From positions 1-5,064 of the forward strand of contig JALGWK010000162.1 in NCBI GenBank assembly GCA_025774205.1: a stretch of DNA of 5,064 nt. The letters are read 5' to 3'. Below the pieces are notes generated by a model. That model was not told the origin of the DNA and ran no database searches. It worked only from the letters and a program-made list of their open reading frames with translations. The position numbers and the translations under genes are program-made. Origin of the DNA: a bacterium. Lineage in GTDB: Bacteria > Blakebacterota > Blakebacteria > Blakebacterales > Blakebacteraceae. This document shows, in pieces, positions 1 to 5,064 of the stretch (the stretch's first letter is position 1; each line of letters begins with the position of its first letter).

Positions 1-68
1 CAAAGCCAGCCTGGAGAGAGAGAACCATAGGAGAGGTGCCTGAGGAATCTATGCAGGCTCGGCCATGA
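1..68 (+). CDS. Possible 3' end of an upstream gene (partial, unidentified)
   Basis: Frame 3 is open from the left edge to a TGA at 66-68, encoding about 21 residues ending in PEESMQARP. Its stop overlaps the ATG (65-67) of the following gene as ATGA, an arrangement common between co-translated operon genes; this overlap is the main reason to suspect a real gene end. An open frame this short is also likely by chance in GC-rich DNA. No family can be recognised from the tail. An alternative reading is a five-codon leader peptide starting at the ATG at 51-53, which has a TGAGGA ribosome-site-like stretch at 41-46. Confidence 0.35.
   Translation, partial: KPAWRERTIGEVPEESMQARP
33..46 (+). promoter_or_regulatory. 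Shine-Dalgarno-like stretch with unusual spacing before the PPDK_N gene
   Basis: GAGGTG (33-38) and TGAGGA (41-46) resemble ribosome binding sites, but they lie about 26 and 18 nt before the ATG at 65, too far for a normal site. A stop codon at 41-43 in the frame of the gene, and no ATG, GTG or TTG between it and 65, make 65 the first possible start. TGAGGA is well placed for the ATG at 51, whose frame ends in the ATGA overlap, so the main gene is probably started by translational coupling. No TATA-like promoter is visible in the first 64 bases. Confidence 0.35.
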
Positions 69-1723
69 AGATCACTGAACTCACCGGGGATGTGAAGGCA
101 TACGGTGACGGCTCGATGGGCGGTAAAGGTGCCGGTCTTGCCAGGATCAACGAATGTCTGATCCCTCATAGTGAAAAGATCAGAACCCGGATCCTGGCCA
201 CCAGCTTTTTCGATCGGTTCCTCGAGAACGATGGTGAGTTCGGGGATGATGAACGAGGCGTGTTCATCTCCATCCTCGATAATCTCGGAGAGGGTCCGAT
301 CGGTGTCCGATCCTCGGCTACCAACGAATCAGGGATGTCCACCGACAAGGAGGACCTCGTCCACGCCGGGGAATACCAGTCCTACATGCTTCCGAACAAC
401 CATCCCGACCCGGCGATCCGTCTGAGGATGGTTCAGCAGGCGATCTCGAACATTTATCAGGATTTTATCGAGAAACAGCCCCCGGCGAGCACCGAGAAGA
501 TGGCCATCATCCTGAATCCTGTTCACGGGGTGTATGATGAAACCAGGGCGGGGCCCTGCTACTACCCCTGCATCTCGGGAGTGGCCGATTCATTCTTTCC
601 CCATGCCCTGAAGGGGCAGGACCCGCAGGGGGGGTTCGCCCGGATCGCGTTCGGCCACGGTTACGCCACTATCCTGGATGATTTTCCCGTGATCTCGATG
701 GCGACGATCAAGGACCCGCTCCCCCTCAAGCTGCTGCAGATCGGCAGAGGGCAGCGTTATTTCTACGCCCTCGACATGACCAGAAACCGGGACCTTGGAG
801 GCGGGGAACTCGACACCATGGCCAAACTGCACACCAGGTTCGCTGATCCCCGTCGTCTCCGGGTGCTCGGCATGGAAGAGAGCTTTATAACCATAGAAGA
901 ACTCATCCAGAACGACCGGTTCCAGTTCAGGACGGGACTCGATGAGATCATGGGCACCATCTCATCCGAGATCACCCCCCACTTCCAGATCGAATTCGTG
1001 TTCAACATCAACACCTCTGACATGGAGGCGGACGGCATCTTTCACATCGTCCAGCTGACACCCCTGCCTGAACTGAAAAGGGAATCAGTTCAGATGCCTG
1101 AGTCTCCCCGCCATACCTGGCTGGCGATCGACAATGTGCAGGGACATGGGGTCATCAGGGGGATCACCCGCGCTGTTGTCATCTCACCCTTCCTTTACGA
1201 GATGGAGATGCATGATGAGGTGCGCGAGAGCATCTCGGAGGTCAATACCACGATGCGAGAACAGGGTGAGAACTACATCCTCATCGTTCCGGGCCGGCTG
1301 GGCAGCAGCAATCGCGACTGGGGGATCAATATCGACTACCGGGAACTCAATCATGCCTCGGCCATCTTCGAGTACGGAGTGGATATCGCCGGACGGGCCG
1401 AGCCACTACCGGAAGAGAGCGGCAGTACAGGGGGGATCTACGGCAGTCACTTCCTCTACATGATCCAGGGCGGTCATGACGAGGAGAAGAAACGGCTCAA
1501 AACCCGGATGCAGGGCACCCAGGGAACCCATTTTCTGACAAACCTGATCGCCAACAACGTGATCTACGGGTTTATAGCCCCGACCGAGGACACACTTGAT
1601 CCCTGGTTCTTCTCGGCGCCCGATCCCACCAGGGCACTCTCGGTGTTGACGTTCCCTGAACCAGTGGCGATTTACGGAGACTCTCTCAATCAACGGTGCA
1701 AGGTTGTTACTGATAATGGCTGA
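65..1723 (+). CDS. PEP synthase/PPDK-like ATP-binding domain protein, stand-alone, without phosphohistidine domain
   Basis: This 552-aa, probably cytosolic protein (no signal peptide or membrane segment seen) begins with a PPDK_N-type ATP-grasp domain, roughly residues 1-335. Visible motifs are GGKGAG (19-24, matching the GGKnAsL loop of PEP synthase), VRSSAT (81-86), an AGEYQSYM segment, a YPCISGVA segment, IEF with Glu310, and HIVQLTP with Gln330. The conserved Arg of the usual QxRP motif is Thr332 here. From about 350 to 552 is a second domain with GHGVIRGI, PGRLGSS (409-415), and two similar motifs, GSHFL (460-464) and GTHFL (487-491). In bacterial PEP-synthase/response-regulator fusion proteins, as I recall them, this domain follows PPDK_N with a single GSHF. 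The swivelling phosphohistidine domain and the PEP/pyruvate barrel are absent, so classical PEP synthesis is unlikely. The next gene overlaps by 8 nt and supplies the receiver modules of the fused relatives. Domain assignment is firm; substrate and reaction are unknown. Confidence 0.85.
   Translation: MKITELTGDVKAYGDGSMGGKGAGLARINECLIPHSEKIRTRILATSFFDRFLENDGEFGDDERGVFISILDNLGEGPIGVRSSATNESGMSTDKEDLVHAGEYQSYMLPNNHPDPAIRLRMVQQAISNIYQDFIEKQPPASTEKMAIILNPVHGVYDETRAGPCYYPCISGVADSFFPHALKGQDPQGGFARIAFGHGYATILDDFPVISMATIKDPLPLKLLQIGRGQRYFYALDMTRNRDLGGGELDTMAKLHTRFADPRRLRVLGMEESFITIEELIQNDRFQFRTGLDEIMGTISSEITPHFQIEFVFNINTSDMEADGIFHIVQLTPLPELKRESVQMPESPRHTWLAIDNVQGHGVIRGITRAVVISPFLYEMEMHDEVRESISEVNTTMREQGENYILIVPGRLGSSNRDWGINIDYRELNHASAIFEYGVDIAGRAEPLPEESGSTGGIYGSHFLYMIQGGHDEEKKRLKTRMQGTQGTHFLTNLIANNVIYGFIAPTEDTLDPWFFSAPDPTRALSVLTFPEPVAIYGDSLNQRCKVVTDNG
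1068..1093 (+). repeat. Perfect 9-bp inverted repeat inside the PPDK_N gene
   Basis: CTGAACTGA (1068-1076) and TCAGTTCAG (1085-1093) are exact reverse complements separated by 8 nt. The repeat falls at the junction between the ATP-grasp domain and the C-terminal domain (about residues 335-343). It could fold in the mRNA, but no function is evident and chance is possible. Confidence 0.4.
1695..1706 (+). promoter_or_regulatory. Ribosome-site-like stretch supporting the ATG at 1716
   Basis: GGTG at 1695-1698 and AAGGT at 1700-1704, inside the end of the preceding gene, resemble the purine-rich ribosome site complementary to the 16S rRNA tail. The AAGGT lies about 11 nt before the ATG at 1716, a slightly long but workable distance. 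The in-frame TTG at 1704 overlaps this site, which argues against it as the start. Weak motif, so moderate confidence only. Confidence 0.35.
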
Positions 1724-3140
1724 TACCTCCGCCGACAGCATCAGCCGGTTCGTGCCCCGGACGATCAACCCGGTAAAGGTCGGACGGGTTGTCTTCTTCA
1801 GCGCGGAGAAGCGGATCCGTGAGAGCGCCGGGATCATCAAAGAGAACATGCCCTGGATCGATGTTGATGTCGTGCATGATCCTCAATCGGTGAACGAGTA
1901 TATCGCCAACCTCCCCCTGGTATTCATCTTCGATGACACCGCCCTGCCCCTCGTCGACGCGGAAGCCGTTCGGTCGAACAATCCCGGCTGCGTGATTGTC
2001 CTTGTCACCGCCAACACGTTTCTCCAGAGTTCCGCACCCCGGCCTTCCCGTGAGAGGTTCCCTTACTCCGCCCAGGCTGACCTGGTATTCGCGTACGATT
2101 CCGATACCTGCGCTCCCCCCCTGATCGTTCCGGCGGCGGTCAGAGCGGCCGAGGACCTCATCAATATCCGGCAACCGGGACGCGTACGTCGGTTCGTTTT
2201 CCTTGTAGTCGATGACGAACCCCGCTGGGTATCACAATTCCTGCCTGTTCTCTACAATATCATCGGTCAGCGGGCAGCGGTGATGATCGCCAGGACATTC
2301 GAGGAGGCCCTGGTCCTCCTCTTCGGGACCGGGGATGATGCTCTGATTGCAGATCCCGGGTCAGAGACCACCGGTCAGGGTGATGACGTGGTCTTCCTGA
2401 TCACCGATCTCTTCTTCCCCCGGAGAGAAGAACTCGACCGCGACACCGGGCGGGACCTGATCCGACTCACATCACAGCATTACCCCCGGATACCGATCGT
2501 GATCGCCTCGAAGGCTGATGAAGCGGACACCTTCAGGGACGATTTCTATATCCTGCCAAAGGGGGATCCGGGGAGTCTGAAGGAGCTGAAAGATCACATC
2601 CATGATTACTCCGGCATCGGCGATTTTATTGTTATCAACGAACCGGGTGAAGTGCTCTATCGGATCACGAACATCCATGAATTGCATGAAGTATTGTGTC
2701 AAGCTGAGGAGGAGAGTCCGGAGGGTCTGGAACTCAGAGAGGTTTTCAAAAGCTACGGACGGCGGGATGCATTCTCCACCTGGCTCTACATGCACAGTTA
2801 CCGGGAGCTCGGCGACACCATACGTCCTAACCGAAGCCAGGGTCTGCAGTTGATCACCTTCCTGAAGGAACATATCGAGAAGGAGATCGAGCGCCTCGAC
2901 ACCACCCCACTCATCATTGGAACAAATCAGGTATTCACTCTTCAAGAACTCGTCGAGACTCTGAAGTCAGTACCACGCGGCGTCATCCAGCACCTGGCGG
3001 ATAACGATGTCATCTCATCCTGGCTCGACTGGAAGGGATATCCGCTGCTTGCCGAAGAGGTGCGACCGATCCATGGGAGTGGAGAAGATCTGCGGGAGGT
3101 CCTGACCACCTTGATCGAGCGCCGGATACGTGAATATTAA
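1716..3140 (+). CDS. Response-regulator-like protein: pseudo-receiver, receiver, and two WL...RP modules
   Basis: This 474-aa protein is numbered from the ATG at 1716; the alternative TTG at 1704 adds four residues and is less likely. Residues about 20-150 have a receiver-like alternation (VVFFSAEKR, LVFIFDDTALP, VIVLVTAN) but lack the paired N-terminal acids and the Lys. Residues about 160-300 form a receiver domain with all phosphorylation residues: Asp166-Asp167 in LVVDDEP, acceptor Asp231 in LITDLFFP, Ser265 in IVIAS and Lys282 in LPKGDPG. Two copies of a C-terminal module follow, about 302-371 and 400-451, each with an ELxExL helix and a WLxxxxYxxLxxx(I/V)RP ending. The module resembles the segment after the receivers in bacterial PEP-synthase fusion proteins, and more distantly DUF5752. 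There is no DNA-binding or other recognisable output domain and no signal peptide. Overlap by 8 nt with the PPDK_N gene suggests co-translation and a shared complex. The kinase partner is not in the window; function beyond phospho-signalling is unknown. Confidence 0.85.
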   Translation: MADTSADSISRFVPRTINPVKVGRVVFFSAEKRIRESAGIIKENMPWIDVDVVHDPQSVNEYIANLPLVFIFDDTALPLVDAEAVRSNNPGCVIVLVTANTFLQSSAPRPSRERFPYSAQADLVFAYDSDTCAPPLIVPAAVRAAEDLINIRQPGRVRRFVFLVVDDEPRWVSQFLPVLYNIIGQRAAVMIARTFEEALVLLFGTGDDALIADPGSETTGQGDDVVFLITDLFFPRREELDRDTGRDLIRLTSQHYPRIPIVIASKADEADTFRDDFYILPKGDPGSLKELKDHIHDYSGIGDFIVINEPGEVLYRITNIHELHEVLCQAEEESPEGLELREVFKSYGRRDAFSTWLYMHSYRELGDTIRPNRSQGLQLITFLKEHIEKEIERLDTTPLIIGTNQVFTLQELVETLKSVPRGVIQHLADNDVISSWLDWKGYPLLAEEVRPIHGSGEDLREVLTTLIERRIREY

Positions 3141-3174
3141 GAAGAGCGGCAGGTTCCCCAACCTGCCGCTCTTC
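3141..3174. terminator. Perfect 15-bp hairpin with CCCC loop between convergent genes
   Basis: GAAGAGCGGCAGGTT (3141-3155) and AACCTGCCGCTCTTC (3160-3174) are exact reverse complements around a CCCC loop (3156-3159). The stem starts at the first base after the TAA at 3138-3140 and lies in the 119-bp spacer between genes converging from both strands, so it can serve as 3' end for both. There is no T run on the plus-strand side. On the minus-strand side the stem is followed by TTAATATTC, a weak T-rich tail that falls over the end of the plus-strand gene. It may act as a transcript-end stabiliser rather than a classical intrinsic terminator. Confidence 0.6.
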
Positions 3175-3259
3175 GATCTGCAGCTTCGACTGCCTGCCGG
3201 GCTCCGTTCCGTGATTGATCAGAAGGAGTCAGAGCGGTCGTCGATGGAACGAGCGGATC
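3175..3259. other. Rest of the convergent spacer, nothing clear
   Basis: These 85 bases contain no convincing gene, promoter or RNA. A weak imperfect pairing of GCTCCGTTCC (3201-3210) with GGAACGAGC (3246-3254), with a one-base bulge and a 35-nt loop, could form just downstream of the peptidase stop but is not strong enough to call. Confidence 0.4.
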
Positions 3260-4807
3260 TCAGCCGCCGCGCCGACCCCGTCCTCTGCCTTCGCCCTCGT
3301 CCTCTTTTTCCTTCTCGGCCTCCTCGTACTTTTTGTAGTCCTTCACGTACCGATCGAGCCAGGGGATCCAGCGGGCCCACAGGTCGAGGTTGGTCTCGAG
3401 CGTGGCGGGTCCGTGGTCCTCGTAGGGGTACATGTAGAGTGAGGCCGTCTTCCCGAGGACATTCATGGCGTGGAACATCTTCGGCGCGTGGAAGGGCGCG
3501 GTCCCGGTGTTCTGGTCATGCATGCCGTGGTACATCAGCAGGGCGCCCTGCAGCTCGTTGGCCCAGAGTATGGGTGACATCCGGAGGTAGACCTCGCGCA
3601 TCTCCCACAGTTCCCGGCGCTCCGACTGGAAGCCGGCCGGGGTGAGGAGCCGGTTGTAGTTGCCGTCTCCAGCGATCCCGGCTCGGAAGAAGGGGGTCTG
3701 GATCATGGCGTTGGCGGTCCCGAAGGCACCGTAACTGTGGCCGCCGATCGCCATCCGGTCGGTATCGACGTATCCCTTCATGTCGAGGGCCTGCATCACG
3801 GCGTAGAGGTTGTTCCGCAGGTCGGAGGTGTAGACGTCGTTCAGCGCCCCCTCATCGCCCATGATGGGGCAATCGGGCTCCACCACGGCGTACCCCAGTT
3901 TGGTGAGGATCACCATCGAGCGGGTGCTGACGCGCGGGAAGGAGTTGATGTTCGTCCGCCGCTTCGACTCATCGAGCGACTTCTGACTGGCGTACTCGCG
4001 CGGATAGAACCACCACATCGCCGGGAGGGGCTTGTCGCCTTCGGTCCAGTCGGGCGGCAGGGTGACGGTCACCCAGAAGGTGATCCCGTCAACCCGCGTG
4101 ACCTCGAACCGATCACGGATGGCGTTGGTGAGTTCGGGCGAGTGGTCGACGTTGTTGGTCATCTTCCTGTAGTCCTCGGAAGACCGCGTCCACAGCCATG
4201 AATCGCCTATCTGGGTGGGGGATTGCCGTGAGATCATCAGCTGCGAGAGGTCGTCGTCCATGGGCTGCACCCCTTCGCTGAATCCGTCGGGGGTCTCATA
4301 GACGCGCTTGACCTCACCCGTCGTGATCTCGACCTGGTCGATGAAAGCCTTCGGGGCTTCGTTGTACCACTCCTCAAACGACTGCGTGCCGGAGAGGTAG
4401 ACGAAGTTCCCATCGGTGGAGGTCCGCACCACCGAGCCGCCCATCGGGCCGCGCTTCGACATCAGGCTGCCCGGGTTGGCGTAGTAATCCTCGGTCTTGT
4501 ACTCGGAGATGGGGTATCGGGTCTCCGGATCGTCCAGGTTCACCGCATAAACGGTCCGGGTTCCGCCCTCACTCCCGGTGATGAAGAGGGTCCGGCAGTC
4601 GGCCGAGTAGGCCGCACTGCTCATCCGCTCTTCACTCTCGTAGACCATCTGCGTGCTGGTCGAATCGAAGGGAGCGAGCCACTGCATCACACGGTCCTTC
4701 CGCGGCTCCTCTTCCTCTTCCTCGGCTTCCTCTTCGGCGGGTTCTTCATCCGCATCGGTCGAATCACTCTCCGACCTCTTTCTCGGTTCCATCTGGAGGA
4801 AGCTCAT
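3260..4807 (-). CDS. S9 family serine peptidase (S9D/glutamyl-endopeptidase-like), C-terminal part after a frameshift
   Basis: This 515-codon ORF is the downstream part of a larger peptidase gene. Numbered from the ATG at 4807-4805, residues 1-230 are propeller blades (SADCRTLFITG, TDGNFVYLSG) carrying an acidic insert at about 18-34. The alpha/beta-hydrolase domain begins near 235 (VTRVDG) and carries the triad: Ser358 in GGHSYGAF (codon 3734-3736), Asp431 in HDQNTGT (3515-3517) and His465 in YEDHGP (3413-3415). GIAGDGNYNRLLTP and the WE/MSP region match the plant chloroplast glutamyl endopeptidase and abundant Gemmatimonadota/Bacteroidota-type homologues, as remembered. Such enzymes cleave peptides; the bacterial ones are usually exported, but the N-terminus is outside the window. 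The tail (about 487-515) is Lys/Glu then Gly/Arg-rich. The ATG is probably not the native start: the frame stays open and family-like upstream to 4870 (DDKRALSWRPDGQG), and the missing N-terminal part is read in another frame from 4804 to 5064. If expressed alone it lacks several blades. Confidence 0.85.
   Translation of the reverse strand: MSFLQMEPRKRSESDSTDADEEPAEEEAEEEEEEPRKDRVMQWLAPFDSTSTQMVYESEERMSSAAYSADCRTLFITGSEGGTRTVYAVNLDDPETRYPISEYKTEDYYANPGSLMSKRGPMGGSVVRTSTDGNFVYLSGTQSFEEWYNEAPKAFIDQVEITTGEVKRVYETPDGFSEGVQPMDDDLSQLMISRQSPTQIGDSWLWTRSSEDYRKMTNNVDHSPELTNAIRDRFEVTRVDGITFWVTVTLPPDWTEGDKPLPAMWWFYPREYASQKSLDESKRRTNINSFPRVSTRSMVILTKLGYAVVEPDCPIMGDEGALNDVYTSDLRNNLYAVMQALDMKGYVDTDRMAIGGHSYGAFGTANAMIQTPFFRAGIAGDGNYNRLLTPAGFQSERRELWEMREVYLRMSPILWANELQGALLMYHGMHDQNTGTAPFHAPKMFHAMNVLGKTASLYMYPYEDHGPATLETNLDLWARWIPWLDRYVKDYKKYEEAEKEKEDEGEGRGRGRRGG
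4706..4736 (-). repeat. GAG/GAA low-complexity tract encoding an acidic loop
   Basis: On the coding strand this is a run of GAG, GAA and GCC codons, partly a GAGGAA hexamer repeat, encoding a Glu run at about residues 24-34 of the C-terminal peptidase ORF. The frame stays open through it. It appears to be a surface loop inserted between propeller strands. Confidence 0.65.
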
Positions 4808-5064
4808 CCCCTGCCCGTCGGGACGCCAGGAGAGCGCGCGCTTGTCATCGCCGCCACCACCGCCTGCGCCCCGCCTGCGCCACCCCGGCCGCCGCCACCG
4901 CCGCCCTGGTTCGAGAGGCCGGTGCGCAGTTCACGCTTCTGGATCTCGTGGAGGACGTTCCCGTCCAGGTCCCAGATCTCCTCCACGGTGCCGAAGTTGC
5001 CCATCGGTACGATGTAGGAGAAGGGCTTCATCATCCTGGTCACCCGCAGGTACTGCCCGTCGGG
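4804..5064 (-). CDS. S9 family peptidase, upstream propeller fragment (partial at right edge, frameshifted end)
   Basis: The frame is open from the right edge to a TGA at 4806-4804. The edge codons read PDGQYLRVT, a typical propeller-blade strand, so the GTG at 5043-5041 is internal and the true start lies outside the window. The segment RMMKPFSYIVPMGNFGTVEEIWDLDG matches the N-terminal propeller of S9D-type peptidases (compare the HRPYSFIVP segment of plant chloroplast glutamyl endopeptidase, from memory). Correct coding ends within the glycine-rich tract near 4871. After that the frame reads a non-family tail (QAVVAAMTSARSPGV) until the stop. Its TGA overlaps the ATG of the downstream ORF as ATGA, which imitates an operon junction, but the continuity of the family alignment shows one interrupted gene. 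Confidence 0.75.
   Translation of the reverse strand, partial: PDGQYLRVTRMMKPFSYIVPMGNFGTVEEIWDLDGNVLHEIQKRELRTGLSNQGGGGGGRGGAGGAQAVVAAMTSARSPGVPTGRG
4850..4905 (-). repeat. GC-rich low-complexity tract encoding a glycine-rich linker
   Basis: The tract is almost only G and C on the coding strand (GGC, GGT and GGG codons with a few Ala and Arg) and encodes a Gly-rich loop between two propeller segments of the S9 peptidase. It contains the 11-bp tandem repeat and the frame break. Such tracts are prone to slippage in the cell and to sequencing error. Confidence 0.7.
4860..4881 (-). repeat. Two perfect tandem copies of an 11-bp unit at the peptidase frameshift
   Basis: On the minus strand GGCGCAGGCGG occurs twice head to tail (4881-4871 and 4870-4860). 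Since 11 is not a multiple of three, the second copy moves the frame. Removing one copy joins the upstream frame exactly to the frame reading GGGDDKRALSW and on into the peptidase body. Loss of one G from a 12-bp unit (the G run is at 4872-4869) would give the same sequence, so a sequencing or assembly slip is equally possible. Confidence 0.8.

Follow-up and report, generated by a model that had tools for sequence, protein, structure and literature searches.

The window analysed here (the whole stretch of 5,064 nt, positions 1 to 5,064 of the forward strand of contig JALGWK010000162.1, assembly GCA_025774205.1, from a bacterium of the Blakebacteraceae, phylum Blakebacterota) contains two overlapping genes, ORF1 and ORF2. 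We tentatively read them, with confidence a little under even, as the two-gene counterpart of a widespread regulator that is elsewhere a single chain, and in which a receiver gates an ATP-grasp protein. The initial annotation, made from the sequence alone, had described separate overlapping genes with the ATP-grasp protein first, and had matched their parts to single large bacterial proteins in which the receivers come first. The genes are indeed arranged in this way, with an overlap of 8 nt, and fused homologues with receivers first are common. Four features reported below had not been noted in it: glutamate dehydrogenase as a neighbour of the family, an invariant His in the PGR domain, a QxR motif without its Arg/Lys in this lineage, and another ORF2, lacking ORF1, elsewhere in the assembly. 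The features of the pair are:

65–1723, + strand: ORF1, a protein of 552 aa with an ATP-grasp (PPDK_N-like) domain and a PGR domain
65–1069, + strand: ATP-grasp domain, ORF1 residues 1–335; K21, R82, E310 and Q330 kept, residue 308 Gln, residue 332 Thr
1115–1720, + strand: PGR domain, ORF1 residues 351–552, a candidate diverged phosphohistidine swivel domain
1529–1531, + strand: codon of the invariant His489 (QGTHF motif), at the start of predicted helix 488–496
1716–1723, + strand: 8-nt overlap ATGGCTGA, joining the ORF1 stop to the ORF2 start
1716–3140, + strand: ORF2, a protein of 474 aa with a pseudo-receiver, a receiver and two DUF5752-like modules (ATG at 1716; TTG at 1704 is a possible start)
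1779–2171, + strand: receiver-like domain 1, ORF2 residues 22–152, without the canonical acidic residues
2187–2618, + strand: receiver domain 2, ORF2 residues 158–301, with a complete phosphorylation site
2406–2408, + strand: codon of Asp231, the expected phospho-acceptor, which is Asp in 38 of 39 rows
2619–3137, + strand: two DUF5752-like "WL...RP" repeats, ORF2 residues ~302–396 and 397–474

The fused relatives were found in a survey of 386 genomes related to the source, most families being represented by one or a few. ORF1-like matches at E≤1e-30 occur in 76 of these genomes, and 38 open frames in the loci fetched encode a fused receiver-receiver-DUF5752-ATP-grasp-PGR protein, mostly of 980–1100 aa. 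A scan of GTDB genomes yielded at least 568 relatives. Of the best 80, most are fused and belong to Bacteroidota; Cloacimonadota, Spirochaetes, Gemmatimonadota, Planctomycetota, Acidobacteriota and other phyla are represented as well. The fused Response_reg/DUF5752/PPDK_N proteins (~1000 aa) can be aligned end to end with the pair, and have the same receiver 1, a complete receiver 2, DUF5752, the ATP-grasp domain and a PGR domain with its invariant His. ORF1 and ORF2 thus share the domain content and invariant motifs of the fused family, but not its single-chain, receivers-first order; relative to that order, the two genes of the window are reversed. The fused proteins differ further in having one "WL...RP" (DUF5752) module rather than two, in keeping the Arg/Lys of the QxR motif, and in often lying next to a glutamate dehydrogenase (GDH) gene. 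The family had been called uncharacterised, and our search of the open literature agrees with this: it found no study of the fused family, either alone or with glutamate dehydrogenase, and no paper on DUF5752.

A conserved pairing of the two separate genes, which had also been predicted, is evident as well. ORF1 and ORF2 occur in the same order in a genome of the same genus (G001), one of the same family (G002), and metagenome-assembled genomes (MAGs) of Zixiibacteriota (L154) and Riflebacteria (L155); in G001 the pair is found on two contigs sharing an overlap of ~500 bases (94% identity). The genes overlap by 8 nt in the same-genus genome, by 8–11 nt in the same-family genome and by 4 nt (GTGA) in the Riflebacteria relative, while in the Zixiibacteriota relative there is a short gap instead. 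ORF1 is 61–83% identical across the related genomes. The five split ORF1 proteins group as a single clade (support 100), which sits on a long branch and falls outside the clade of fused proteins. The initial proposal is thus supported in part: fused homologues and conserved pairing, whose absence would have told against it, were both looked for and found. Read as unrooted, with the split clade outside the fused proteins, the ORF1 tree does not show gene fission from a nested fused ancestor, nor does it order fusion and fission. One genome, G120 (L070), was considered as a second split locus and dropped, its two genes being non-adjacent and on opposite strands. No relatives of the pair were found in the viral contigs searched.

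The predicted domain content is borne out by the Pfam matches of relatives and by AlphaFold2 models. The Pfam scans of the ORF1 and ORF2 alignments were permissive (matches listed up to E 10), and their counts include the window proteins. Of the 50 rows in the ORF1 alignment, 49 match PPDK_N (best E 2e-54), the window protein itself giving only a sub-threshold match (E=0.01). The ORF1 model is confident (pLDDT 85.7), and its top match, both by Foldseek and by structural alignment, is rifampin phosphotransferase (RPH; Z 22.6, 262 residues), whose ATP-grasp domain it resembles (5hv1, 5fbs), although ORF1 has no rifampin-binding domain. Matches to PEP synthase 2ols (Z 22.1, rmsd 4.7, 337 residues; model 9–551 on chain 9–467) and PPDK 1dik (Z 18.8, rmsd 5.7, 339 residues; model 1–552 on chain 2–512) extend much farther along the model, these ranges being end points only; the isolated ATP-binding domain 5hv6 aligns over 257 residues. 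Fold-search rows such as chitinases and carbamoyl phosphate synthetase, with E>0.01, were disregarded.

Like PEP synthase and PPDK, ORF1 has the ATP-grasp fold and most of the nucleotide-site residues. Over 83 aligned rows there is essentially no variation at K21, R82, E310, Q330 and R411 (window numbering). The dikinase set is incomplete, however: Lys, Arg, Glu and Gln are present, and the Arg of QxR is replaced by T332. This residue is Thr in the family of the window and in Zixiibacteriota and Arg or Lys in all other rows, including that of the Riflebacteria split pair (Lys). At residue 308, the DxE position, nearly every other row has Glu or Asp, but those split rows that were compared have Gln. 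We take the PPDK counterparts of residues 332 and 308 to be R337 and D321. The Thr at the QxR position suggests that ATP chemistry has probably been altered, or perhaps lost, in this lineage. A pyruvate/PEP-binding C-terminal domain is absent from ORF1, which ends at residue 552 and has no other Pfam family; in contrast to PEP synthase and PPDK there is no room for the pyruvate/PEP barrel.

In structural alignments the PGR domain falls at the place in the chain where PEP synthase and PPDK carry their phosphohistidine domain. Full-length alignments to these enzymes add ~80 residues beyond those obtained with the ATP-grasp domain alone, and their end points lie in the phosphohistidine region. 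In the model, the domain runs strand-strand-helix-strand-strand-His helix-strand-strands, which we take to be the order of a phosphohistidine swivel domain; residues 439–471 are a low-confidence stretch inside an insertion. His489 is His in 83 of 83 rows and in 50 of 50 rows of a second, partly overlapping alignment. Against a swivel domain, the best RPH row (5hv1) stops in the rifampin-binding domain, short of the RPH swivel domain, which follows at residues 767–865 (PMC4844700). On balance, we consider it somewhat more likely than not that the PGR domain is a phosphohistidine swivel domain.

For ORF2, the window protein has no Pfam match, DUF5752 (PF19027) included. Among the 39 rows of its alignment, 37 match Response_reg (best E 1.2e-13) and 30 match DUF5752 (best E 6.4e-07), and the repeats of the window protein align with the DUF5752 region of these relatives. 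The ORF2 model is also confident (pLDDT 86.8); residues 158–301 match receivers with Z 14.8, and residues 22–300 match a double-receiver protein with Z 13.0. Receiver 2 keeps all of D166, D167, D231, S265 and K282, as expected of a response regulator, and receiver 1 has no conserved acidic set. Tandem receiver-type domains are also found in PleD-type regulators (1w25; 3luf), from which ORF2 differs in having the complete site in the second receiver rather than the first, and DUF5752-like repeats rather than GGDEF as its output.

An indication of a possible function comes from the neighbours of the fused genes. GDH lies within 5 kb of the fused gene in 23 of 37 survey loci, against 0.24 expected if the 69 GDH genes of the 37 genomes were placed uniformly, an excess of about a hundredfold by an estimate that ignores operon structure and the shared ancestry of the loci. 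In a second locus set GDH is near 36 of 75 loci, and receiver-less members of the family also lie beside it. GDH is the sole clearly recurrent unrelated neighbour family (71 loci); the other large neighbour clusters look like opposite-strand frames of the same genes. Because the orientation of the genes to GDH varies, the link is not one inherited operon.

Two recurrent arrangements were seen around these genes. In L058, L060 and L062–L066, from genomes of several families, there is a trio of glutamate dehydrogenase, a ~590 aa ATP-grasp/PGR protein and a ~1070 aa ATP-grasp/PGR-nucleotidyltransferase protein, the nucleotidyltransferase (NTP_transf_2/Polbeta) domain having been checked in L062 and L065. 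In the Bacteroidales loci L158, L161, L163, L166, L170, L174 and L175 there are tandem fused genes (~1000 and ~1200 aa) with glutamate dehydrogenase nearby.

We suggest the following scenario for the pair. Asp231 of ORF2 would be phosphorylated by a histidine kinase. ORF2 would be in contact with ORF1, much as the corresponding domains are joined in the fused relatives, and would then gate it. ORF1 would bind ATP, and His489 in its swivel-like domain is probably a phosphate carrier, or was one ancestrally. What the wider family regulates is probably GDH or the ammonia/glutamate node; for the lineage of the window, where no GDH gene is adjacent and the ATP chemistry is probably altered, we propose no target. 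That the genes stay paired here and form one polypeptide elsewhere argues for a complex of the two proteins, within which the receiver may act on the ATP-grasp protein. As to the input, a histidine kinase and an NtrC-like regulator are encoded upstream of the Zixiibacteriota pair on the same strand, and beside the Riflebacteria pair an opposite-strand frame encodes a histidine kinase with a receiver; these neighbours favour a conventional kinase as the likely input to receiver 2. A more specific proposal is a hitherto unrecognised signalling family whose dikinase-type ATP-grasp/phosphohistidine module modifies GDH and either is controlled by the receiver or phosphorylates it, with the system in this lineage split and redirected to another target; we regard this as possible but doubtful.

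Several observations weigh against this interpretation. Within the family there are several receiver-less groups, comprising a standalone protein of ~590 aa, a protein of ~1070 aa with a C-terminal nucleotidyltransferase domain after the ATP-grasp and PGR domains, and further relatives of 700–900 aa; the receiver is therefore not essential to the core function. PF00391 gave no match, even sub-threshold, in the 50 ORF1 relatives scanned with Pfam, and a profile-profile comparison of the PGR domain with the phosphohistidine domains of PPDK and PEP synthase was not significant (probability 1, 12 columns), so we do not infer from sequence that PGR and the swivel domain are homologous. GDH is next to none of the split pairs, whether on the window contig, the G001 and G002 contigs, or in L154 and L155, and it was not found in G002 or G003. 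The sole GDH (PF00208) match in the source genome (L148, G000:C425) and in its congener (L149, G001:C258) lies in a frame of ~1000 aa, unlike the dehydrogenases of the genomes with fused genes, which are mostly of 410–510 aa; these four genomes are all incomplete MAGs.

There are multiple possible alternatives to a receiver-gated regulator. ORF1 of this lineage may be a catalytically dead scaffold. It would bind nucleotide, or no ligand at all, and act as a docking protein that changes shape under the control of the receiver protein, without phosphotransfer. The Thr at the QxR position and the Gln at the DxE position are what such a protein might show, and the missing GDH neighbour and a second copy of ORF2 without ORF1 point the same way; K21, R82, E310, Q330 and His489 nevertheless remain, and ORF1 has been kept at the identities given above in related genomes. 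We consider a scaffold rather unlikely. Alternatively, the pair could be an unusual phosphorelay, a dikinase-type histidine kinase with its receiver, in which His489, charged by the ATP-grasp domain, hands its phosphate on to Asp231 of ORF2. The invariant candidate His is indeed retained along with a complete receiver, in cis or in trans, but His489 is just as invariant in the receiver-less subfamilies, ordinary histidine kinases adjoin two of the split pairs, and QxR is changed in this lineage; such a relay seems quite improbable. The receiver is optional in the family, unlike the ATP-grasp/His core and the link to GDH, and so more probably serves as an input than as the domain that accepts phosphate from His489.

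A metabolic role would require ORF1 to be an ATP-dependent small-molecule ligase or kinase whose activity the receiver protein merely adjusts. The ATP-grasp superfamily consists mostly of ligases and kinases, and the dikinase relatives PigC and RPH act on small molecules (RPH: PMC4844700). ORF1, on the other hand, has no third substrate-binding domain, and members of the family lie beside GDH rather than in a biosynthetic cluster; this explanation, too, seems quite improbable.

If the family does control GDH, it would represent a previously unknown layer of nitrogen regulation in many bacterial phyla, cultured gut Bacteroidota included. The split pair provides two separately expressible halves with which the switching of an ATP-grasp/phosphohistidine enzyme by a receiver could be tested in trans.

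Further copies of the genes occur outside the complete pairs. The second ORF2 of the source assembly (76% identical) is on contig C128 (L023, G000:C128, 6831–10051), where it directly follows the gene for the GMP synthase ATP-PPase subunit and precedes a methyltransferase gene, with ORF1 missing; in the same place in G001 (C229/C181), ORF1 is followed by ORF2. C128 may reflect either loss of ORF1 or a mixture of strains in the assembly. In an Aminicenantes MAG (L156, 7968–8678) ORF2 is missing and ORF1 is reduced to its C-terminal part (63% identical), a likely remnant.

Finally, the window contains a third, unrelated gene on the - strand (4807–3260), which encodes a Peptidase_S9 protein according to the Pfam scan. 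Upstream of it, 5064–4804 on the same strand is open in a different frame and may belong to the same gene, frameshifted.

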